DNA of 64,000 nt from Rhodococcus oryzae (lineage in GTDB: Bacteria > Actinomycetota > Actinomycetes > Mycobacteriales > Mycobacteriaceae): contig NZ_SUMD01000003.1 in the NCBI RefSeq assembly GCF_005049235.1, positions 372,001 to 436,000 on the forward strand. The letters are read 5' to 3'. Shown here piece after piece: positions 19,891 to 58,810 of the stretch. Numbering within the stretch: the stretch's first letter is position 1; each line of letters starts with the position of its first letter. Both the position numbers and the translations under genes were made by a program. The notes under the pieces were generated by a model. It made no database searches and was not told the origin of the DNA. It saw nothing but the letters and a program-made list of their open reading frames with translations.

Positions 19891-19946
19891 GAGGCGATCC
19901 TTGCACCTACCCACATTCCGCACGCGGACCGCCGCTCCGATTAGCA

Positions 19947-22900
19947 TTGTCGCCGGTGCAACCCGATACGAGCGACTCCGCAGTGACCGCTGATCCCCGG
20001 CCACTGATTGTCGTGTCCCTTTTGGGTGATATCTCGACGCGCCGGGGCGGTGAGCTGGTGCCGTTGCCGGGGGCACGGGCGCGCAGCCTGCTGGTGGCGT
20101 TGGCCTGCAGGCCCGGCCGCAGCCGCAGCGCCCAGGCCCTGATCGAGGACGTGTGGGGAGACACTCCGCCGCGTTCGCCGATCAATGCGCTGCACACCCA
20201 GATCTCGCGGTTGCGCGGTGCACTGCCCGAGGGCGCGATCGAGATGGGGCCCGCGGGATACCGGCTCGACCTCACCCGGGCGCAGGTCGACCTCACGCTC
20301 GCCCGGATGTGGGAGCAACAGGCGCAGCAGCTGATCTCCGAGGGCGATCCGCGTGGGGCCATCGATACGATCCGCCGGGCCAAGTCGTTGTGGCGCGGCG
20401 AACCGGGCGCGGACCTGCCGGCAGGCGAGCTGGCGCGGGAACTCGTCGACGAAGGGCAGGCGCGACTGGCTGCGCTCGCCACGGTCGAGGTCGTCGCCCT
20501 CATCGAGGCGGGTGAACTGGGTGAGGCGCTGCCGCTGGCCGAGAACAGGGCCGCGCGCGCCCCGCTCGACGAGCGCGCGCACGAACAGCTGATGGTGGTG
20601 CTGAACGGACTCGGTCGCGCGAACGACGCGCTGGAGGTGTTCGCCGGACTCCGCGGCAGGTTCGCGGACCGACTCGGGACAGACCCCTCACCGCGGCTGG
20701 TTCGGCTCAATGCCGCTGTGCTGAACGGAGAACTGCCGGTGCGTGCGGTCCAGGCGGACGCGGCGCCGGAGCCCGCTCATGCTGCGCCCCGGCCTGCCCT
20801 GATGGCGGTCGGCCTGCGCGCAGCGCCGAACGCGCTGCTGGGACGCGAGGGGGATCTGGACGCGATCGAGGACCTGCTGGCGACCTCCAGGGTGGTGACG
20901 GTGCTCGGTCCCGGTGGAACCGGAAAGACCCGAGTCGCGCACGCGCTCGGTTCGCGGGCCGCGGAGCGGGTTCCGGTCGCCCTTGTCGAGCTCGCATCGT
21001 TGCGCAGCGGCGAGGATGTGGTCACGGCCATCAGCGGCACGCTCGGGCTCAGCGAGGCCGAACTCACCCCCGGCACCGCATTGAACAGGGCCCGTATCTA
21101 CGACGCTCGCGATCGGCTCCGGGAGGCGTTGTCTGCCCGGCCGACGCTGTTGATCCTGGACAACTGCGAGCACCTGATCGACGATGTCGCGGAGGTGGTG
21201 GCCGACCTGGTGGCGGCCAGCGTGAACCTGACCGTGCTGGCCACCAGCCGGGCCCCGATGGCGATCACCGCCGAGGCCGTGTACCCGTTGCCGCCCCTGG
21301 TGATCGACGAGTCCGGTTCGCCCGCAACGGATCTTTTCCGGGCTCGCGCGCTGGCCGTGCGTCCGGCGGCTCGGCTCGATCCGGTGGAGGTCGCGCGGCT
21401 GTGCCGGACGCTCGACGGCCTACCGCTCGCCATCGAGTTGGCGGCCGCCCGGGTCCGCACGATGAGCGTCGCGGAGATCAACGCCAGGCTCGACGACAGG
21501 TTCGCGCTGCTGCGCTCCGGTGACCGGACCTCGCCGGAGCGGCACCGGACCTTGCGGGCGGTGATCGAGTGGAGTTGGAATCTGCTCGAACCGGACCAGC
21601 AGGCCGCGCTGCGTCGATTGTGCCGGTTCCCTGCGGGTTTCACCCTCGCCGCGGCCGTCGAGGTGGCGCAGTGGGGTGAGGTGTCCGATATCGCCGATGC
21701 CCTCGACGGATTGGTGAACCAGTCGATGCTCTCGGTTGTCGAGGGGGCGGACTCGTCGGGCCTGCGCTATCACATGCTCGAGACAGTGCGGGAATTCGGC
21801 GACGGGCAGTTGGCGCGCGCGGACGAATCGGACGAGGTCACTGCCAGGACGGTCGCCTGGGCACAGTCGTTCTGCCTGGCTGCGGTGCGGGACTTCCTCG
21901 ATGGCGATCAGGTCGCCACCGCCCTCCGGATCGAGGCCGAGCACGACAACCTGCTCGCCGTGCTGCGCCACACGCTGTCCGTCGGTGACGGGGTCGGCGC
22001 ATTGACGGTGTTCCCGGTGCTGGGTGTCACGTGGTCCTTCCGCGGGGCCCATTCCGAGGTGATCGCACTCGCGCCGAGGGTCCTCGAGATCGACCCGAGG
22101 AGGTACAGCCCTGAGTCGCTGTCGGGGAACTGCCTGGCGCTGACCTACCTGGTCATCGTCGGCCACACCGCGTTCGTCGGCGTCAGCAGGGCACTGGCCG
22201 TGACCCGGCTCAGGCTCCGGGCGATCCTGGCGTCTCGGACGGACATCGACGAGGCGGTGCGGATGAACGCCTCGCTGGTGATCATGCCCGTATCGGGAAA
22301 GGGTCTGGCCCGCAAGCTCGCTCGCGCAATCCGGTCCGAGAACCCGTCGGCGCGGTCGTCGGCGTACATGGCGCGGGCCAACCTGCGGGAGAACAGCGGC
22401 GACCTGTACGGCTCCTGGTCCGACGCCATGGCAGCCAGGGACATCGCGGAGGCGGGCGGAGACGTCTGGGGCCTGGCGATGGTGCTGCAGCACCTCGGCA
22501 GCCTGGCCGGGCAGTCCGCGCGGTACGGAGAGGCGGTCGGGTACTACCGGCGGGCCGCCGAACTGCTCTGGGACCTGCACGCGTACGAGGAGAGCACCAC
22601 GCTGCGCAGCTATATCGGGGCCGCGCTCGTCGGTGCCGGCCGTGTCGAGGAGGCTCGACGGGAACTGGTGGCGGGCGGCTCGGCTGTCGAGGCGGTGGAA
22701 CTGTCCATCGCGGGGGATCGGTCGACGTTCGGCATTGGCGATGCCAGGCAGAGCGCGGGCGCGATCGCGGCGGCAATGGCCGAGGTGGACCTGGCCGAGG
22801 GCTCGGTGGATGCGGGGCTGCGCGGGTACCGGCACGCGCTGGAGTTGGTCGGCTGGGAGAACACGGGAGTGACCCCCGATCCGTTCGGATTCATGCTGCT

Positions 22901-23306
22901 GGCGGCGACGGTGGCCGCGCACGCGCTGGCGGGTCGCGGCGACGAGATCGCGGATCTGGTCGACACCTACGCTGGGATGGTCATGACACATCTCGGTCCG
23001 GACGGCTACCCGGATCTTCCGCAGACCGGCGGGGTGGCGTGCGCGGTGGGCAGCTTCGACATCGCGACAGGGAGGAACCCCGAGGGCGGGTTGCGGATGA
23101 TCGCCCTGTCGACCAGGGTCGCCGCCCGACAGGACTTTCCGTCGATGCAGTCGTCGCGACACCTGGGCGTGGCGCGCGAGGCGCTCGGCGTGGAACGGGT
23201 GGACGCGGAACTGGCACGGGTCGAGCGGATGCCGCGGCGGGTCGCGCGTGACGAGATCCTGGTGGCCCTGCGTGACCGTACGGACGGGGAGAAAACGCCA
23301 CTGTGA
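19947..23306 (+). CDS. AfsR/SARP-type regulator: winged HTH, BTAD, NB-ARC-like ATPase, TPR
   Basis: About 1119 residues. Residues 20-105: OmpR-type winged HTH typical of SARP proteins ([27 protein letters not shown]). Residues 110-255: bacterial transcription activation domain (BTAD). Residues 295-600: STAND/NB-ARC-like NTPase with P-loop GPGGTGKT (321-328), Walker [14 protein letters not shown] near 393 and the [14 protein letters not shown] motif. The remaining 500 residues are TPR-like helical repeats. This is the AfsR layout, activators of secondary metabolism or stress genes. TTG at 19947 or GTG at 19956 may be the start; no strong ribosome site. No biosynthetic cluster is adjacent. Confidence 0.88.
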
Positions 23307-50067: not shown

Positions 50068-50766
50068 GTGGCAACAACACACGGGTCTCGGGCCTCGCTG
50101 GAGAAGGATCCGCACGAGGTCGCGTCGATGTTCGACGGCGTCGCGAAGCGGTATGACCTCACCAACACTGTGCTCTCGTTCGGGCAGGACCGCAGTTGGC
50201 GCAGGGCGACGCGCGCGGCGCTCGACCTGAAGCCGGGGGAGCGGGTGCTCGACCTCGCGGCGGGCACCGGCGTGTCCACCGTGGAGCTCGGGCGTTCCGG
50301 CGCCTGGGTGGTGGCCGCAGACTTCTCCAAGGGCATGCTGAAGGCAGGCGCCGACCGTCGGGTGCCGATGGTGGCGGGCGACGCGATGGCACTGCCGTTC
50401 GCGGATGCGGTGTTCGACGCCGCGACCATCTCGTTCGGGCTGCGCAACGTCTCCGACTTCGAGGCGGGCCTGCGGGAGATCGCCCGGGTGACCAAGCCGG
50501 GCGGTCGCCTGGTGGTCAGCGAGTTCTCCACCCCGACCTTCGGCCCGTTCCGCACGGTCTACATGGAGTACCTGATGAAGACGCTGCCTGTGGTGGCGCG
50601 CACGGTGAGCAGCAACCCCGACGCCTACGTGTACCTCGCGGAGTCGATCCGGGCCTGGCCAACGCAGGAGGAGCTGGCGCTCAAGATCGAGGCGGCCGGT
50701 TGGAAGAACGTGCAGTGGCGCAACCTCACCGGCGGCGTCGTGGCGTTGCACCGCGCCGAACGGTAG
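50068..50766 (+). CDS. menG: Demethylmenaquinone methyltransferase
   Basis: 232-residue class I SAM methyltransferase of the UbiE/MenG family (EC 2.1.1.163), last step of menaquinone formation. Motifs: [48 protein letters not shown] (SAM site), [36 protein letters not shown]. The GTG at 50068 matches the usual MenG start; the longer upstream frame is a shadow. Confidence 0.95.
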
Positions 50767-50805: not shown

Positions 50806-50853
50806 GGGTAACGTGGAAAACACAGGGGACCGTGTGATGAGAGTGACGCTTCG
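50806..50853 (+). promoter_or_regulatory. Promoter and conserved 5' leader, copy 1
   Basis: A TAnnnT-type -10 (TAACGT, 50809-50814) precedes a 31-base leader (50823-50853) that is 29/31 identical to the leader before the paralogous regulator at 54632-54662, with identical spacing to the ATG. The leader contains AGGGGA followed 7 bases later by ATG (50837), opening a 21-codon frame that overlaps the regulator start and ends at 50902. Such overlap between non-coding leaders is stronger than expected if only the protein were conserved. Confidence 0.55.
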
Positions 50854-53202
50854 ATGCCGCCCACCGTGCAAGGCAAGGTCGGGAACCTGCCCCTCGAGCT
50901 GACCAGTTTTGTCGGCCGTCGCCATGAGGTGACCGAGGCGCGACGGCTGTTGTCCGAGTCCCGTCTGGTGACGCTCACCGGGATCGGCGGGGTCGGCAAG
51001 ACCCGGCTGGCACTGCGAGTGGCCGAGGATTCCCGGCGTGCTTTCGACGACGGGGTATGGCTCGTCGAACTGGGTGAGGTGTACGACCCGACGTTGGTGC
51101 CTGCCACGGTGGCCGCCGCGCTCGGACTTCGGGACCAGCTCGCCCACCTTCCCGAGGAGGTGTTGGCGGACCACCTCGCCACCCGCCGCCTGCTGCTGGT
51201 GCTCGACAACTGTGAGCACCTCGTCGAGGCGGTCGCGGCCCTGGCGGAGTCGTTGCTGACGGCCTGCCCCGAGATGCGTATTCTCGCCGCGAGCCGAGAG
51301 GCCCTCGGCATCAGCGGCGAGGCGGTGTTGCGGGTGCCGCCGCTGACGGCCCCGAGCAGCGACGAGGCGTCCTCGTTGCAGGGCCTTCCCCGATACGACG
51401 CGGTGGCGCTGTTCACCGAGCGGGCCTCGGCCGCGGTACCCGAGTTCACCCTCACCGAGGACAACCGGCGGGCGGTCGCCGGGATCTGCCACCGGCTGGA
51501 CGGCCTGCCGCTGCCGATCGAGTTGGCGGCGGTGCGGCTGCGCGCGATGACGGCCGAGCAGGTCCTGCAGCGGTTGACCGATCGTTTCCGGTTGCTGACC
51601 CTTGGCAGCCGCGGCGCGCCGACCCGTCAGCAGACATTGTGGTCCAGCATCGAGTGGAGCCACGAGCTGTGCTCGGTCCGGGAACAGGAGCTGTGGGCCC
51701 GGCTGTCGGTATTCGCGGGCGGATTCGAGTTCGATGCCGCGGAGGGGATCTGTGCGGGTGAGCTGTCCTCGGCCGAACTGCGCGTCGTCCTGGCGTCGTT
51801 GGTCGACAAGTCGATCCTGATCCGCGAGGAGCAGGGTCCCGCGGCGCGGTACCGGCTGCTCGAGACCCTCCGCGCCTACGGGAACGAGAAACTGCGGGAA
51901 TCCGGTGATCGCGACGGGCTGCATCGCAGGCACCGGGACTGGTACGCGCGGTTGGCCCACACGGCCGAGGCCGAGTGGATCGGGCCGAACCAGGTGTCGT
52001 GGATCGCTCGTCTGGCGCGGGAGACGTCGAACCTGCGCGAGGCCCTGCAGTTCAGTCTGACCGCGCCCGGTGACGCCGAGGCCGACGTCTGCCTGCGGAT
52101 GGTCAATTCCCTGTACCTGTACTGGATCTGCCGCGGGCTGATCAGCGAGGGCAGGCGCTGGCTGGATCGCGCGCTGGCGCGGTCGGGCGATCGGCGCACG
52201 GCGGACCGGGTGCTCGCGCTGTTCGGGTGCAGCGTCATGACGGGCATGCAGCAGGAATTCGCCACCGCCGCCATCCTCGTGGAGGAGTGCGGCACGCTCG
52301 CCCAGGAGCTGGGCGATCCGATGCTGCGGGCCGCCGCCGGGTACGCGACCGGTTTCCAGTCGCTGTTCAGCGGCCATCTCACGGGCGCGCGGCGTTCGTT
52401 CGAAGACGCGCTGCAGACGAGTCGGCCGACCGGCGAACTCCACCGGGCGATCGGGTGCCTGCTCGGGTTGGCGGTCGCCAGCGGGCTGCTCGGCGACGAG
52501 GACCGGTCGGTCGGCTGCTACGAGCAGGTGTTTGCCATCACCGCATCGCGTGGCGAGTCCTACTATCGCGCGTACGCACTGTGGGGGCTCGGGCTCGCGA
52601 CCCTGCACAAGGGTGACGTGACGCGGGCGGCCGCACAGCTGGCGCAGGCCCTGCGCCTGGTGCGCCGGGTCAATGACCCGATCATCGCCACCTGGTGCCT
52701 CGAGACGATGGGGTGGATCGCGGCGATCGAGGATGCGCCGGACCGGGCCGCCGTGCTGTTGGGGGCCGCCAACGCGCTGGCGAAGGCGGAGGGGGGCATC
52801 ACCGTGACCCTGCCCAACCTGCTCAGCCACCACGCGGAGTGCAAGCAGCGGGCACGAGCGGCACTCGGCGATCGCGCCTTCGAGGATGCGCGGCGCCGCG
52901 GCAGGGGGATGGATTTCCGCGAGGCGATCGGCTACGCACTCGGTGAACGCCGCCCCGCCGGGCCGCGGGCGGTGGAGGAGGCAGTGAGCCTGACCCGGCG
53001 TGAGATGCAGGTCGCCGAGCTGGTCGCGCAGGGCCTCACCAACAGGGCGATCGCCGAGAAATTGGTCATCTCCCCGCGGACGGCCCAGGGGCATGTCGAG
53101 CGGGTGCTGGCCAAGCTCGCGTTCACTTCGCGCACCCAGATCGCCGCCTGGTATCTCGAGCGGACGCGGGAGCAGGAGTCGGACGCGCAACGGGGGGCTT
53201 GA
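50854..53202 (+). CDS. STAND/NB-ARC ATPase with C-terminal LuxR HTH, paralogue 1
   Basis: 782 residues. N-terminal lead GNLPLELTSFVGRRHEV, P-loop GIGGVGKT (43-50), Walker B RLLLVLDNCEHLVEA, GLPLPIELAAVRLRAM, then TPR-like helical repeats, and a LuxR/GerE HTH at about 711-766: LTRREMQVAELVAQGLTNRAIAEKL and SPRTAQGHVERVLAKLAF. These LAL/MalT-like regulators need ATP and an inducer to activate transcription. The DNA-recognition helix reads TAQGHVE, unlike TVEGHVE in the neighbour. It is the first gene of a duplicated module; upstream leader is conserved in both. Confidence 0.9.
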   Translation: MPPTVQGKVGNLPLELTSFVGRRHEVTEARRLLSESRLVTLTGIGGVGKTRLALRVAEDSRRAFDDGVWLVELGEVYDPTLVPATVAAALGLRDQLAHLPEEVLADHLATRRLLLVLDNCEHLVEAVAALAESLLTACPEMRILAASREALGISGEAVLRVPPLTAPSSDEASSLQGLPRYDAVALFTERASAAVPEFTLTEDNRRAVAGICHRLDGLPLPIELAAVRLRAMTAEQVLQRLTDRFRLLTLGSRGAPTRQQTLWSSIEWSHELCSVREQELWARLSVFAGGFEFDAAEGICAGELSSAELRVVLASLVDKSILIREEQGPAARYRLLETLRAYGNEKLRESGDRDGLHRRHRDWYARLAHTAEAEWIGPNQVSWIARLARETSNLREALQFSLTAPGDAEADVCLRMVNSLYLYWICRGLISEGRRWLDRALARSGDRRTADRVLALFGCSVMTGMQQEFATAAILVEECGTLAQELGDPMLRAAAGYATGFQSLFSGHLTGARRSFEDALQTSRPTGELHRAIGCLLGLAVASGLLGDEDRSVGCYEQVFAITASRGESYYRAYALWGLGLATLHKGDVTRAAAQLAQALRLVRRVNDPIIATWCLETMGWIAAIEDAPDRAAVLLGAANALAKAEGGITVTLPNLLSHHAECKQRARAALGDRAFEDARRRGRGMDFREAIGYALGERRPAGPRAVEEAVSLTRREMQVAELVAQGLTNRAIAEKLVISPRTAQGHVERVLAKLAFTSRTQIAAWYLERTREQESDAQRGA

Positions 53203-53206
53203 TCAG

Positions 53207-53232
53207 AAACAGGTATGCATCCGGGTAGTTCC
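53207..53232 (+). promoter_or_regulatory. Conserved box, copy 1 (before the hydrolase gene)
   Basis: A 26-base element (AAACAGGTA-N5-CCGGGT-N-GTTCC) found 22/26 identical at 57016-57041, also just after the STAND/LuxR stop and ahead of the dependent gene. It lies 74 bases before the hydrolase ATG. Candidate binding site for the STAND/LuxR proteins or shared promoter. Confidence 0.5.
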
Positions 53233-53305
53233 GCCCTGACGGTCAACGGGCGCAAGCGGCAATGTGTGCTGGGTCATATCCGCGACCGCGAAGCCGAGGC
53301 CCTCG

Positions 53306-54190
53306 ATGTTGCAGCACCCGACAAGCCACCCCTACGTCGTCAGCCAGGCGAGGAACACCAGCTGGAAGAACACCCTCGTCGAGGGTCGGGCGGCGTCCTA
53401 TGCGGTGGCGGGTGCGGGTGCTCCGGTCGTGTTCCTGCACGGGTACGCGCTGACCCCCCGCGCGTATGACCGCGCACTGCTGCGGATGGCGGCTCAGGGA
53501 GTTCGGGTGTTCGCGCCCTCACTTCCCGGATTCGGCGGCACCGCGGAGCTTCCCCCGCAGGAGCGGAACCTGGCCGGGTACGCGCGCTGGCTCGACGGGT
53601 TCCTCGATTCGATCGGTATCGCGGGACCGGTGACGCTCGTGGGCCACTCGTTCGGAGGTGGGGTCGCGATCCAGTCCGCACACGACCTCGGACCAAGGGT
53701 GGCGCGGCTGGTGCTGGTCAACTCCGTTGGCGGCGCGGCATGGTCCCCTGGGGACGGCGACGTGCGCCCGATCGGCGAGCGGCCCCTGTGGGCCTGGGGC
53801 GCGGCGGCCACCGGCGACGCCCTCGCCATTCGGCCGTCCGTCGCGGGCCTGCTGGCGATCACGGCGGACGCGGTGGGCAACGTGCTGCGCAATCCGCTCG
53901 GGATGTGGCGCCTCTCGCACCTGGCCCGAACCGCGGACCTGCTCGGCGAACTCGACGAGTTGGCGGAGCGCGGCCTTCCGGTGACGCTGCTCTGGGGCGG
54001 TGACGACACGTTCATCCCGCGCGCCAGCTTCGAATCCCTTCGCATCGCGCTCCGCAATCCCACGGTTGTCACCGTCGCGGGCAACCACGGCTGGCTGATC
54101 GACAACCCGCACGGATTCGGCACCGCGATGGCGACCGTGTTCGGTGCGGAGCAGCCGCAGCCGCACACACCCGCGGCGGTGACGTTGTGA
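53306..54190 (+). CDS. Alpha/beta hydrolase
   Basis: 294 residues with the full hydrolase pattern: oxyanion HGYALTPRAY, nucleophile elbow LVGHSFGGGVAIQSAH, acid in LLWGGDDTFIPR and catalytic His in VAGNHGWLID. No signal peptide; cytoplasmic. ATG at 53306 with GAGG 6 bases upstream; this start region resembles that of the Zn-ribbon gene at 57112, which suggests a shared ancestor for the leader. The stop overlaps the next start by 4 bases (GTGA), so it is coupled to a Zn-ribbon/OB-fold protein. Confidence 0.87.
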   Translation: MLQHPTSHPYVVSQARNTSWKNTLVEGRAASYAVAGAGAPVVFLHGYALTPRAYDRALLRMAAQGVRVFAPSLPGFGGTAELPPQERNLAGYARWLDGFLDSIGIAGPVTLVGHSFGGGVAIQSAHDLGPRVARLVLVNSVGGAAWSPGDGDVRPIGERPLWAWGAAATGDALAIRPSVAGLLAITADAVGNVLRNPLGMWRLSHLARTADLLGELDELAERGLPVTLLWGGDDTFIPRASFESLRIALRNPTVVTVAGNHGWLIDNPHGFGTAMATVFGAEQPQPHTPAAVTL

Positions 54191-54588
54191 CGGCCGCGGG
54201 CGGGACCCACCTGTGGGCCGGCCTGTCCGCGCGCACGCTGATGATCCGGCGCTGCGAATGCTGTGAGCTGCTGCTCGCGCCGGTCGCGGTGACCTGCTCT
54301 TCGTGCGGGAGCGACCACCTGTCGCGGGTACCGTCGACCGGGCTCGGGTCGATGGTGACCTGGAAGCTGGCCGACCGCGCGCGGGCCGGCGCGGACGACG
54401 ACGCCCTGCCGTGCATGCTGGCCGTCGTCGCGCTCGACGACGGGCCCTGGATCTGCAGTTGGATCGAGGGGGAGATCGCGGTGCGCCCCGGCCGCCCGGT
54501 CCGGGTGGAGTTCGACCATCTGGAGCCCGACGAGCGGTACCCGGTGTTCCACGGCTGCCAACACGCGCCTGCCGTGCGAGTCGCCTGA
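54187..54588 (+). CDS. Zn-ribbon/OB-fold (DUF35-like) protein, paralogue 1
   Basis: 133 residues. Zinc ribbon RRCECCELLLAPVAVTCSSCG (two CxxC pairs) then an OB-fold with PCMLAVVALDDGPWICSWIEGEI and RYPVFHGCQ. Related to DUF35 but shorter, and no thiolase gene is near. Coupled to the hydrolase gene by a 4-base overlap. Its closest relative in the window is the gene at 57112. Possible role: acyl-CoA or acyl-carrier recognition for a partner encoded elsewhere. Confidence 0.8.
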   Translation: MTAAGGTHLWAGLSARTLMIRRCECCELLLAPVAVTCSSCGSDHLSRVPSTGLGSMVTWKLADRARAGADDDALPCMLAVVALDDGPWICSWIEGEIAVRPGRPVRVEFDHLEPDERYPVFHGCQHAPAVRVA

Positions 54589-54614
54589 CACGGCCCCCTT
54601 CGACCCCGCTCCGG

Positions 54615-54662
54615 GGGTAGCGTCGATTGGGCAGGGGACCGTGTGTTGAGAGTGACGGTTCG
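54615..54662 (+). promoter_or_regulatory. Promoter and conserved 5' leader, copy 2
   Basis: TAGCGT (54618-54623) as -10, then the 31-base leader at 54632-54662, near-identical to copy 1. Here the AGGGGA is followed by TTG (54646) opening a 21-codon frame that ends at 54711, the same layout and length as in copy 1. Confidence 0.55.
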
Positions 54663-56987
54663 ATGGCTACAGCTGTCCGGGGCAAGGTCGGGAACTTACC
54701 GCTCGAGCTGACCAGTTTCGTCGGCCGTCGCCGCGAGGTGACCGAGACGAGGCGGCTGCTGTCTGTCTCGCGCCTGGTGACGTTGACCGGGATCGGCGGG
54801 GTCGGCAAGACCAGGCTCGCGCTCCGGGTGGCCGAGGACTCCCGGCGGTCGTTCGAGGACGGGGTGTGGCTGGTCGAGCTGGGCGAGCTGCAGGAGGAGG
54901 CCCTGCTGCCCGACCTGGTGGCCGCGACGCTGGGACTGCGGGAACAGTCGACGTCTCGCACGCAGGACTCGCTGGCGGAGTACCTCGCGGATCGACGACT
55001 GCTGCTGGTGCTGGACAACTGTGAACACGTACTCGATGCGGCCGCGGCGCTCGCCGAGTCGTTACTGCGGCGCTGCCAGGACCTCCGGATCCTGGCGACC
55101 AGCCGCGAGCCGTTCGGCATCGGAGCGGAGGCCTTTCTGCGGGTGCCGCCGCTGTCGGTCCCGGATCCGGATCGGCGCCCGTCCGGGCGCGGGTTCGCTG
55201 GGGGCGACGCCGTGGCGCTCTTCGCCGAACGGGCGTCCGCCGCCGTCCCGGAGTTCGGGCTCACCGAGGACAACCAGGTCGCGGTGGCCCGGATCTGTCA
55301 GCGATTGGACGGGCTGCCGCTGCCCATCGAGTTGGCCGCGGGGCGCCTGCGGGCGATGTCCGCGGAACAGATCCTGGACCGGTTGAACGATCGCTACAGC
55401 CTGCTGACCGGGGGTAGTCGCGGCGCGCCGACGCGGCAACAGACGCTTCGCCTGTGCATCGACTGGAGCCATGAGCTGTGCACCGAGCGGGAGCGGATGC
55501 TGTGGCGGCGGATATCGGTGTTCACCGGTGGTTTCGAGCTCGATGCGGCGGAGGGCATCTGTGCCGGGGACCTGAGCCCTGACGACCTGCTGGACGTGGT
55601 GGCGGCGCTCGTCGACAGGTCGATCCTGATCCGGGAGGAAGCGGGTGCCGTGGTGCGCTACCGGCTCCTCGAGACCCTCCGCGAGTACGGCCGTGAGAAG
55701 TTGGCGGAATCCGGTGAACACGCCTCGATGCGGCGACGGCACAGGGACTGGTACCAGCAGCTCGTGATCTGCGTGGAGGCCGAGTGGATCGGTCCGCGGC
55801 AGGTGGAGTGGATGGCACGGCTGGGGCGGGAGCAGCCGAACCTGCGTGAGGCGATGGAATTCTGCCTGACCGAGCCGGGAGAGGAGGAGGCCGGCCTGCG
55901 CACCGCCGATGCCCTCGCCCCGTTCTGGTTGTCCCGGGGCCTGCTCGGCGAGGGTAGGCATTGGCTCGATCAGTTTCTCGACCGCCAGGACGGGCAGCCG
56001 ACCGTGGAGTTGCTATGGGGGCTGTACGCGAACAGCGTGCTGGCCGGCAACCAGGGCGACATCGAGGCGGGGGCGGCGCTGGTCGAGCGGGCGCGTGAGG
56101 CCGCCGAGGTCCTCGGCGACGCCCAGGCTCGCGCGCTCGCGACCCTCGCCGTCGGGCAGCTCGCGGTGTGCAGCGGCGACATGCAGCTGGCCGCCTCCTC
56201 CCTCGAGGAGATCGCCGACGCGTTCCACACGGGACGGGAGCTGGTGCTACGGCTCGCGACGCTGCTCGGCCTCGCGCTGGCCTGCGGGCTGCTCGGGGAC
56301 ACGACGCGCTCGATCGCCTGCCAGGAGGAGGCTCTCGAGATCACCCAATCCCGCGGCGAGTCCGTGTACCGGGCCTACTCGCTGTCGACCCTCGGTCTCG
56401 CGTTGTGGCAGAGCGATCCCCGGCGGGCGGCCGGGCTGCTCGAGCAGGGTCTTCGGCTCAGCCGCGTCGTGGACGATCCGCTCGGATCCGCGATCTGTGT
56501 CGAGGCGCTGGCCTGGGTCGCCGCGGGCGATCGGCTCGCCCGGCGGGCGGCCGTGCTGTTCGGCATCGCCAACTCGCTGTGGCGGGTCGTGGGCAGCGCG
56601 GGGATCGTCATACCGCCCCTGCTCGCGTATCGCGAGGAGTCGGAGCTGCAGGTCCGCAGCGCGCTCGCCAAGCGCGCCTACGAGTCGGCCTTCGAGCAGG
56701 GCGCCAACCTGAGCTTCGATGACGGCATCGCGTACGCGCTGGACGAGCAACTCCAGGGGTCGCCGACCGAAGGCGCCGCCTCGGCACTGACCCGACGTGA
56801 GCGGCAGGTCGCCGACCTGGTCGCGCAGGGCCTGACGAACAGGGCGATCGCCGAGCAACTGGTGATCGCCCCGCGCACCGTCGAGGGCCACGTCGAGCAC
56901 GTTCTCGCCAAGATGGGCTTCACCTCCCGCGCGCAGATCGCCGCGTGGGTCGTCGAGCAGGCGCAGGTCGAAACCCGAACGCTCTGA
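54663..56987 (+). CDS. STAND/NB-ARC ATPase with C-terminal LuxR HTH, paralogue 2
   Basis: 774 residues, collinear with paralogue 1 over its whole length: GNLPLELTSFVGRRREV, P-loop GIGGVGKT (43-50), LLLVLDNCEHVLDA, GLPLPIELAAGRLRAM, WIGPRQVEWMARLGREQPNLREAM, TPR-like repeats, and LuxR HTH (about 707-762) LTRRERQVADLVAQGLTNRAIAEQL / APRTVEGHVEHVLAKMGF. It is clearly a tandem duplicate that has diverged in the HTH recognition helix, so the two may bind different sites or heterodimerise. Followed by a Zn-ribbon gene but no hydrolase. Confidence 0.9.
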   Translation: MATAVRGKVGNLPLELTSFVGRRREVTETRRLLSVSRLVTLTGIGGVGKTRLALRVAEDSRRSFEDGVWLVELGELQEEALLPDLVAATLGLREQSTSRTQDSLAEYLADRRLLLVLDNCEHVLDAAAALAESLLRRCQDLRILATSREPFGIGAEAFLRVPPLSVPDPDRRPSGRGFAGGDAVALFAERASAAVPEFGLTEDNQVAVARICQRLDGLPLPIELAAGRLRAMSAEQILDRLNDRYSLLTGGSRGAPTRQQTLRLCIDWSHELCTERERMLWRRISVFTGGFELDAAEGICAGDLSPDDLLDVVAALVDRSILIREEAGAVVRYRLLETLREYGREKLAESGEHASMRRRHRDWYQQLVICVEAEWIGPRQVEWMARLGREQPNLREAMEFCLTEPGEEEAGLRTADALAPFWLSRGLLGEGRHWLDQFLDRQDGQPTVELLWGLYANSVLAGNQGDIEAGAALVERAREAAEVLGDAQARALATLAVGQLAVCSGDMQLAASSLEEIADAFHTGRELVLRLATLLGLALACGLLGDTTRSIACQEEALEITQSRGESVYRAYSLSTLGLALWQSDPRRAAGLLEQGLRLSRVVDDPLGSAICVEALAWVAAGDRLARRAAVLFGIANSLWRVVGSAGIVIPPLLAYREESELQVRSALAKRAYESAFEQGANLSFDDGIAYALDEQLQGSPTEGAASALTRRERQVADLVAQGLTNRAIAEQLVIAPRTVEGHVEHVLAKMGFTSRAQIAAWVVEQAQVETRTL

Positions 56988-57015
56988 CGATCGCGTCGGG
57001 GTCGGTCAGCGGAGA

Positions 57016-57041
57016 AAACAGGTACCCACCCGGGTGGTTCC
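57016..57041 (+). promoter_or_regulatory. Conserved box, copy 2 (before the second Zn-ribbon gene)
   Basis: Same 26-base element as at 53207-53232 (22/26 identical), containing the perfect 12-bp palindrome CCACCCGGGTGG at 57026-57037. It stands 70 bases before the ATG of the Zn-ribbon gene. Confidence 0.5.
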
Positions 57042-57111
57042 ACCGTCGCCGGGGACCAGGGCAAAAGGGACACTTGAGTCGTCATCAGCTCCAGGAAGCC
57101 GAGGTCCCCCG

Positions 57112-57531
57112 ATGTTCGAGCAACAGGTGCAGTGCTCATCCACAGGTGCGAGAAGTGTCCGGACCCGGCGGCGGGCGCTGATGATCCTGCGCTGCGAGGA
57201 GTGCGCGACGCTGTTGGCCCCCGAGGAGACGGCGTGCACCTCCTGCGGCCGGGACGAACTCGAACGGGTGCGGGCCGCGGGCACGGGGACCGTGGTGTCG
57301 TGGACGGTGGTGGACTGTTCGTCCGTCGACCTCCCGCTGGCGCTGGTGCCGTGCACGCTCGCGATCGTCGAGCTCGACGAGGGTCCCTGGATCTACACCT
57401 GGATCGAGGGAGAGCTGCCGGTGCATCCGGAGCGGTCGGTGCGGGTGGAGTTCCGGCTGGCGGAATCGGGGGAGCGGTTCCCCGTGTTCGCCGTTCGGCG
57501 GACCGTCGCAGATCGGGCCGGGATCAGCTGA
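57112..57531 (+). CDS. Zn-ribbon/OB-fold (DUF35-like) protein, paralogue 2
   Basis: 139 residues; 24 residues of basic N-terminal leader, then zinc ribbon LRCEECATLLAPEETACTSCG and OB-fold with PCTLAIVELDEGPWIYTWIEGELPV and RFPVFAVRR. Clearly homologous to the gene at 54187 (same cysteine spacing, GPWI-x-x-WIEGE). The last 8 bases overlap the 3' end of the convergent menJ-like gene. ATG at 57112 with GAGG upstream. Confidence 0.8.
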   Translation: MFEQQVQCSSTGARSVRTRRRALMILRCEECATLLAPEETACTSCGRDELERVRAAGTGTVVSWTVVDCSSVDLPLALVPCTLAIVELDEGPWIYTWIEGELPVHPERSVRVEFRLAESGERFPVFAVRRTVADRAGIS

Positions 57532-58810
57532 ACGGCGGCCGCGAGTCGAGTCGCAGCGAGGACGACCCCGACGCCCGCCACGCCCGCGCGGTCAGGTCAC
57601 GATCCGCGTCGGTCACGAGGTTGCCCATCACCCGGACCGCGATCGTCATCAGCGCACGTGAACGCATCGCCAGCGGCCCGGAGGCAGGCAGCACCCGGGG
57701 GACGGTGAGCAGGCCGGCGAGCCGACGGGCGATGGAGAAGGCCTGCCCGTACCGCTCCCGCAGCAGGGTCGGCCACAGCTCGGTGAGGTCCGGGGCCCCG
57801 AGCACCTCGGCCACCATCGAGCCGGTCTCCAGGCCGTAGTCGATGCCCTCGCCGTTGAGCGGGTTCACACAGGCCGCGGCGTCGCCGATGATCGCCCAGT
57901 TGGTCCCCGCCACCCCGGACACCGCCCCGCCCATCGGGAGCAACGCCGATGCCACCGCGCGCACGGGGCCGTCGAGCCGCCACTCGTCGCGGCGCTGCTC
58001 CGCGTACAGCTCGATCAGCGGCCGCAGGGCGCCGGGCGCGGGCCGCTTCGCGGTGGCCAGGGTGCCGACGCCGAGGTTGACCTCGCCGGTGCCGAGCGGG
58101 AACACCCAGCCGTAGCCGGCCTGCAGGGTCCCCTCGCGGTCGCGCAGTTCGAGGTGCGAGGTGATCCACGGGTCGGCGCTGCGGGCCGAGCGGACATAGG
58201 CGCGGGCCGCAACCCCGTACGCGGTGTCGCGATGCCACTCGCGTCCGAGACGTTTGCCGAGGGTGGATCGCACGCCGTCGGCGACGATGAGGTGCTCGCA
58301 GCGGACCGTGCGTGGCCCCTCGGCCGTCTGGAGGGTCACCGACCGCACCCGGTTTCCGTCCCGGTCGGCGTCAACGGCCTTGGCGCCCTGGACCATCCGG
58401 GCACCGGCGTCGAGCGCGACCTGTCGGATCCGGTCGTCGAGTTCGGTCCTCGGGACCGCGCTGCCGGTACTCGGCAGCGAGCCGCCGGGCCACGGCAGCT
58501 CCAACTCCTGCCCGAACCCGTTCAGCCGCAGGCCTCGGTTGGTGGCGCGGGTGGCGAGCCAGTCGCCGAGGCCGAGATGGACGAGCTCCGCCACGGCGCG
58601 CGGGGTGAGTCCGTCGCCACACGTCTTGTCCCTCGGGAAGGTGGCGGAGTCGGCGAGCAGCACCTCGCGGCCCGCGCGCGCGGCCCATGCCGCCGCCGCG
58701 GAACCCGCGGGACCTGCGCCGATCACCACCACTTCGGCGTGCGAGGGGACGCCATCGGGCGCCTCGGAACGGGCGGCGGAGGGATCGGGGTCGACAGGCG
58801 AGGGCACCAC
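57524..58810 (-). CDS. menJ: Geranylgeranyl-reductase-family flavoprotein, probable menaquinone-tail reductase
   Basis: 428 residues. FAD-binding GAGPAGSAAAAWAARAGREVLLAD, the family motif TCGDGLTPRAVAEL, VRCEHLIVADGVRSTLGKRLG and IIGDAAACVNPLNGEGIDYGLETG. It corresponds by position to Rv0561c (MenJ), which saturates one isoprene unit of menaquinone-9 in mycobacteria. Two adjacent GTG codons are possible starts. Convergent and overlapping (8 bases) with the Zn-ribbon gene; divergent from grcC1. Whether the quinone here carries a saturated tail is inferred. Confidence 0.88.
   Translation of the reverse strand: MVPSPVDPDPSAARSEAPDGVPSHAEVVVIGAGPAGSAAAAWAARAGREVLLADSATFPRDKTCGDGLTPRAVAELVHLGLGDWLATRATNRGLRLNGFGQELELPWPGGSLPSTGSAVPRTELDDRIRQVALDAGARMVQGAKAVDADRDGNRVRSVTLQTAEGPRTVRCEHLIVADGVRSTLGKRLGREWHRDTAYGVAARAYVRSARSADPWITSHLELRDREGTLQAGYGWVFPLGTGEVNLGVGTLATAKRPAPGALRPLIELYAEQRRDEWRLDGPVRAVASALLPMGGAVSGVAGTNWAIIGDAAACVNPLNGEGIDYGLETGSMVAEVLGAPDLTELWPTLLRERYGQAFSIARRLAGLLTVPRVLPASGPLAMRSRALMTIAVRVMGNLVTDADRDLTARAWRASGSSSLRLDSRPPFS

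Follow-up and report, generated by a model that had tools for sequence, protein, structure and literature searches.

What do five genes, two of them for large regulators, do between menG and a menJ-type gene of the menaquinone region of Rhodococcus oryzae, and did their two halves arise by duplication? We analyzed a window of 64,000 nucleotides (assembly GCF_005049235.1, contig NZ_SUMD01000003.1, positions 372,001 to 436,000) in which LuxR1, an alpha/beta hydrolase, Zn-ribbon 1, LuxR2 and Zn-ribbon 2 follow each other on the plus strand, flanked by menG and the convergent menJ, in the positions and order given by an earlier annotation made from the sequence alone (the original prediction). Overlooked in that annotation was a conserved ∼37-bp DNA element located 3′ of each regulator gene and ahead of the next gene. 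Sequence comparison establishes this operator, a −10 box at constant distance from it, its tie to certain gene families and to regulator-bearing genomes, and the non-sister ancestry of the two sets; we infer regulator binding, activation, the inducer, the transcription start and the enzyme roles. The block probably represents two activator-operator sets of different ancestry in tandem, in which each large ATP-binding LuxR (LAL) regulator would activate the adjacent operon via its element. Switched by ATP and a presumed small inducer, the regulator would bind its operator and turn on the hydrolase and Zn-ribbon 1 in the first set and Zn-ribbon 2 in the second.

Both elements share the form RAAACAGGTAY-N5-CNSGTNNTTC-NN-CCGTSG. 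Searching the genome (5.37 Mb, 31 contigs) with this form returned the two block sites at 0 mismatches and one more, at 3 mismatches, before an NlpC/P60 gene. The element precedes all five Zn-ribbon homologues of this genome, the fifth being a truncated copy with a weaker site; the C12 homologue has its own hydrolase and no regulator nearby, and the C27 homologue is divergent from a regulator. Across six genus genomes, the pattern with ≤2 mismatches gave 38 matches versus 4 for a reversed control. Nineteen of these had 0–1 mismatch, of which 15 lie before Zn-ribbon or hydrolase genes, 3 before NlpC/P60 genes and 1 before a gene for a protein of 110 amino acids (aa). With a sequence model built from 16 training sites, we found 17 sites in the genus at E<1e-6, i.e., the training sites plus one before an NlpC/P60 gene. 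The training sites score 41.6–52.6, and no site reached 13 in 0.94 Mb of shuffled sequence in which base content, but not dinucleotides, was kept.

Among 54 non-redundant sites, an A at offset 55 is found in 46 and a T at offset 59 in 43, while offsets 37–51 are little conserved. Because the spacing to this −10 box is fixed, the element reads as an activator operator/promoter: it would cover about −67 to −33 relative to the predicted start site, followed by a −10 box and with no clear −35 box, as in an activator-dependent promoter. An RNA element was also considered and rejected, as no Rfam family was detected at the element sites of the block or of seven other loci, and the sole match in the block was below cutoff and inside the hydrolase gene.

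If the element were instead owned by another, global regulator of cell-envelope genes, the LAL genes would be mere neighbors. We regard this as unlikely, even though operators also occur before NlpC/P60 and 110-aa genes with no regulator close by, and no operator adjoins ten dispersed LAL paralogues encoded in this genome. The distribution of the element across 301 family genomes argues against it (regulator relatives at E≤1e-180, element at E≤0.003, Zn-ribbon at E≤1e-12; stricter filters were used in the genome element search, and only the three best candidates per genome were scored in the regulator survey). Close regulator relatives occur in 94 of these genomes and the element in 44, representing 5 of 31 genera. 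A regulator relative is present in 43 of the 44 element genomes versus 51 of the 257 without the element (Fisher p 1.5e-24, phylogeny ignored), and the only element genome lacking such a relative, G052, bears a single weak site. Zn-ribbon homologues are found in 115 genomes overall and in 41 of the 44 with the element.

A similar picture emerges from the 30 best Zn-ribbon loci, which were picked on the Zn-ribbon alone and include 6 training sites. Of these, 23 carry the element by score (17/24 excluding the training sites), 5 more carry it by eye with one base less between the halves and 1 has none (29 read), and a LAL regulator lies within 1.5 kb at 20 of the 30, again at odds with a global regulator. 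In 20 loci read at length, the order regulator-element-Zn-ribbon was seen in 13/13 of the Prescottella genus and 6/7 of large Rhodococcus; these loci had been picked where regulator and Zn-ribbon, and mostly also the element, were already seen, so that 19/20 is a reading and not a test. The three families occur together at several Nocardiaceae loci, in line with the original prediction.

Moreover, the first half-site varies with the recognition helix of the neighboring regulator, even inside one genome, which also speaks against a global regulator. Regulators with the helix TAEGHVER stand beside the half-site AACACGTA (three cases identified by score and three by eye), whereas all 32 other regulator neighbors scored above 18 have A[CT]AGGTA. 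Prescottella defluvii harbors one helix/half-site pair of each kind (L206, by eye, and L270).

The original prediction took the block for a duplicated module, with sister status of the two copies as the preset criterion. Our trees do not bear this out: LuxR1 and LuxR2 as one clade are rejected with p-AU (approximately unbiased test) 1.8e-8, and Zn-ribbon 1 and Zn-ribbon 2 with p-AU 4e-4. Regulator trees of 54 and 26 rows place LuxR1 among dispersed paralogues from its own genome (100/99 in both trees). LuxR2 falls with Zn-ribbon-linked regulators, those of Prescottella included, and with paralogue C30, which lacks a Zn-ribbon (88/92 and 97/98, respectively). In Zn-ribbon trees of 49 and 25 rows, Zn-ribbon 1 groups with the C27 copy (100/93; 98/95), nearer Prescottella (93/87; 85/86), and Zn-ribbon 2 with the men-locus Zn-ribbon of Rhodococcus tukisamuensis (91/93; 93/92). 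Exchanging the partners, i.e., Zn-ribbon 1 with the R. tukisamuensis copy and Zn-ribbon 2 with C27, is likewise rejected; both groupings were named after the tree was seen. The men-locus regulators form no clade with LuxR1 (p 1e-4) or LuxR2 (p 0.007), and that of R. tukisamuensis alone fits with either (p 0.14 and 0.11). The Zn-ribbon tree has 107 columns and weak deep branches; a long row, L192, falls inside the Zn-ribbon 2 group of the 49-row tree. The 25-row tree omits this row, and several regulators are likewise absent from the 26-row tree.

LuxR2 and Zn-ribbon 1 thus belong to one descent group and Zn-ribbon 2 to another, so that the sets look shuffled rather than freshly duplicated, and our best reading is a pair of activator-operator sets with separate ancestries that became shuffled at a single site. 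A simple tandem duplication of a LuxR-hydrolase-Zn-ribbon unit, copy 2 of which then lost its hydrolase, would agree with the same gene order, with the resemblance between the leader and start regions of the hydrolase and those of Zn-ribbon 2, and with single LuxR-hydrolase-Zn-ribbon units at the same site in four relatives. The rejected sister placements of both gene pairs contradict it under the models used, and it would have to invoke strong gene conversion involving other paralogues, which makes it very improbable.

Several observations weigh against two sets that are each controlled by their own regulator. The genome co-occurrence count ignores shared descent, and no site of E<0.01 lies next to any of the ten dispersed paralogues found here. 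Some operators have no regulator in reach (the pirin locus of G000/G001, G003:C2, G005:C22 and the loci of the R. koreensis/R. opacus/R. jostii type), so that action in trans must be assumed. In the TAEGHVER set, the three by-eye sites have altered or shortened spacing, L170 has both kinds of half-site and the cut-off copies L167 and L169 have none. The TAEGHVER regulators form a single tree branch (100/100), and the change of helix and half-site is therefore one event in one clade. Finally, the wider LuxR2 group is well supported in only one of the two regulator trees (97/98 against 88/92).

That the block is an insert in the menaquinone region, as originally suggested, agrees with our comparison of the 30 best menJ loci, 27 of them outside the genus: LuxR, hydrolase or Zn-ribbon genes were found in the 1.5-kb menJ flank of 0/27 of these. 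As to the claim that menG and menJ are adjacent or nearly so in relatives, 15 of the 27 have menG within 13–190 bp, 2 have it at ∼0.9 kb and 10 have no menG within the 1.5-kb flank. In the genus itself, the block occupies the menG-menJ site in 6/6 genomes examined, which rules out an insertion peculiar to this one genome. Since the block is present in all of these and in none of the flanks outside, the site was most simply filled already in the ancestor of the genus. The 3′ end of Zn-ribbon 2 overlaps menJ by 8 bp, and the MenJ-type reductase scores 652 bits against an NCBIfam cutoff of 700.

Table 1. Genes and predicted promoter features of the block and its flanks (positions within the window).
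Feature	Position	Strand	Basis or remark
menG, left flank	50128..50766	+	gene call, domain scan
LuxR1, 782-aa LAL/STAND regulator: NB-ARC/AAA, TPR-like, C-terminal GerE helix-turn-helix	50854..53202	+	
Operator element 1 (AACAGGTAT...GGGTAGTTC)	53206..53242	+	predicted, sequence model
Putative −10 box of promoter 1, CAATGT	53260..53265	+	fixed offset from element, consensus
Alpha/beta hydrolase (Abhydrolase_6), Ser/Asp/His conserved	53306..54190	+	
Zn-ribbon/OB (DUF35-like) protein 1	54187..54588	+	GTG start in 4-base overlap with hydrolase stop; conserved core from 54241
LuxR2, 774-aa LAL/STAND regulator	54663..56987	+	
Operator element 2 (AACAGGTAC...GGGTGGTTC)	57015..57051	+	predicted, sequence model
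Putative −10 box of promoter 2, GACACT	57069..57074	+	consensus
Zn-ribbon/OB (DUF35-like) protein 2	57112..57531	+	start 57112 or 57181; core from 57181
menJ-type menaquinone reductase, right flank	57524..58732	−	alternative start 58810

The domain scan matched both regulators to NB-ARC/AAA and GerE domains, corroborating the two STAND/LuxR regulators of 782 and 774 residues that had been predicted. GerE matches have E = 9e-16 and 1e-17, both lengths fall in the LAL range of about 770–900 aa, and the Walker A/B residues of the NTPase (G43, G45–T50 and D118) are invariant among 13 relatives; from their sequences, LuxR1 and LuxR2 are LAL-type proteins. No kinase domain was matched in either by the scan, which sets them apart from PknK-like regulators. 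The genome has 13 close LAL family members. It also encodes two tandem paralogues of 1,070 and 1,088 aa (locus L046, 5349–8561 and 8696–11962), the second of which is kinase-NB-ARC-TPR-LuxR by scan. Elsewhere in the window, a further STAND-type long open frame (19893–23303, plus strand) has about 35% identity to part of LuxR2. L167 and L169 (1–5845) show three consecutive family regulators, of which the first is cut off; operator-like sites lie between the later ones.

MalT-type LAL/STAND activators and AfsR have a similar NTPase-TPR-helix-turn-helix layout, and the STAND part of AfsR (8k60) was the longest match to a solved structure, over the NTPase/TPR part; the DNA-binding domain of AfsR is of the SARP (Streptomyces antibiotic regulatory protein) type, unlike that of LuxR1 and LuxR2. 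Mycobacterial PknK has the same STAND-LuxR part. This part is also shared by the Pkc+LuxR subfamily of Rhodococcus (PMC3466318), whereas LuxR1 and LuxR2 lack the kinase domain. The closest characterized analogue appears to be TpdR of R. jostii TMP1 which, according to PMC6099782, is a 788-aa LAL protein that activates through repeats at −79 to −37; the same paper states that MalT binds its own direct decanucleotide repeats. TpdR is of near-equal size, has its Walker A at 43–50 as in LuxR1 and ends in a LuxR helix-turn-helix, and at P_TTMP it acts as an activator on repeats that overlap the −35 region and extend just upstream of it, with a catabolic operon as its target (PMC6099782). It differs in its proposed operator, TnnAAnnGCGGAnTC, in the spacing and in the monooxygenase operon that it controls, as judged from its published description (PMC6099782). 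From the sequence data, we consider the block part of a real, conserved regulator-operator system that would work in a LAL/TpdR-like manner, with a new operator and target set but ordinary in kind.

LAL regulators are abundant in rhodococci, and TpdR is the one characterized example that we found in the open-access literature. No description of the element or gene set was found there, subscription papers being outside the scope of the search. A defined operator with fixed promoter geometry allows for sequence-based target assignment in an orphan regulator family, and gives a handle on the role of hydrolase-coupled DUF35 proteins.

The hydrolase has a nucleophile elbow and a catalytic Asp/His, with S115, D234 and H261 invariant in alignments of 8 and 13 rows. 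Its predicted structure is good (predicted local distance difference test, pLDDT, 87). Many esterases, dehalogenases and C-C hydrolases resemble it, none standing out from the others. With the thresholds applied, no regulator, element or Zn-ribbon was detected in flanks of up to 6 kb around the hydrolase relatives of Nocardia, Nocardioides, Actinomycetospora and Acidimicrobiaceae. Hydrolases of the pirin cluster (L048, 8001–8747; L117, 6315–7070) are without most of the cap region that, in the men-locus copy, separates the nucleophile half from the catalytic Asp. In P. defluvii (L206, 6013–6851) and one R. opacus locus (L227, 5947–6802), the hydrolase is split into two overlapping frames, suggesting a frameshift or sequence error. 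The predicted 4-base overlap of hydrolase and Zn-ribbon 1 was confirmed: the same RTGA, shared by the stop codon of the hydrolase gene and a putative start codon of the Zn-ribbon gene, is found in 8/8 hydrolase-Zn-ribbon pairs examined, two of them from near-identical strains.

In the Zn-ribbon proteins, the four Cys of a rubredoxin-like CxxC...CxxC ribbon are invariant across 16 homologues. Zn-ribbon 2 passes the Pfam OB_ChsH2_C cutoff (42.5 bits; cutoff 27.1), Zn-ribbon 1 is just under it (25.4), and zf-ChsH2 matches these proteins only under its cutoff. Likeness to DUF35/ChsH2 is seen in both profile and fold matches (6ok1, E 4e-6), and DUF35/ChsH2 proteins (6ok1, 6esq) and the archaeal translation recovery factor Trf (6htj) have the four Zn ligands and the OB fold in common with them. 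The gene coupled to the ribbon here differs, being an alpha/beta hydrolase, and no thiolase or aldolase partner was found among the eight locus proteins scanned, to which the search was confined. A seeming DUF35 mention in a phage-infection transcriptome paper was DUF3542 and was set aside. One alternative is that the Zn-ribbon/OB protein acts on nucleic acid like Trf, itself of the DUF35 fold, rather than on acyl-CoA, and that the set is a growth-resumption switch. Trf was matched by profile (E 2.5e-10) and by fold (E 1.8e-4, among 17 fold matches below E 0.001); the lack of a thiolase among the scanned proteins and the NlpC/P60 cell-wall enzyme behind the same element would fit as well. Nevertheless, ChsH2/DUF35 partners of aldolases and thiolases match better than Trf and the Zn-ribbon model is modest (pLDDT 71), and we consider this alternative somewhat unlikely.

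A regulator-controlled set of three families, as first predicted, remains the best reading, but the regulated set exceeds these genes, including NlpC/P60 and the 110-aa protein. In R. koreensis, R. jostii, the Rhodococcus metagenome-assembled genome PMG_259, R. opacus, R. wratislaviensis and R. tibetensis, divergent genes for a secreted NlpC/P60 protein and the hydrolase flank two back-to-back elements, and the R. erythropolis version of this locus has an extra Zn-ribbon gene and two regulators. A scan of 133 loci detected this NlpC/P60 type in 10, each of which has the element; 3 of them had been fetched via the element, and the profile was made from 7 of the 10. Zn-ribbon loci of genus g22, which we tentatively take to be Nocardia, carry the element, in some cases with the gap between its halves shortened by one base. 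We tentatively propose, at slightly less than an even chance, a lineage-wide regulon in Rhodococcus, Prescottella, related genera and probably Nocardia, in which STAND/LAL activators with their own operator code, a helix variant being matched to a half-site variant, would control a hydrolase, a DUF35-type protein and a secreted NlpC/P60 endopeptidase as an envelope-linked response, the regulators multiplying and reshuffling while the operator is kept.

The protein of 109–112 residues is encoded 3′ of the element in four genomes, and the copy scanned had no Pfam match. At L110 (5181–5844), the 112-aa gene and its operator are flanked on either side by a tRNA gene; the two tRNA genes have the same Rfam score, suggestive of insertion through a tRNA duplication. 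R. tukisamuensis (L119) and three large-Rhodococcus loci (L305, L306, L307) have another small gene 3′ of the Zn-ribbon, the kinship of these genes being judged by eye; the L119 copy matches DUF3263 just under cutoff and the L307 copy has no match. A strong orphan operator element of the R. erythropolis type, found in large-Rhodococcus genomes of genus g23 (L277, L279, L284, L285, L286), has no called gene behind it and possibly marks a small RNA, a peptide or a relic. A weaker element site is also present at locus L128.

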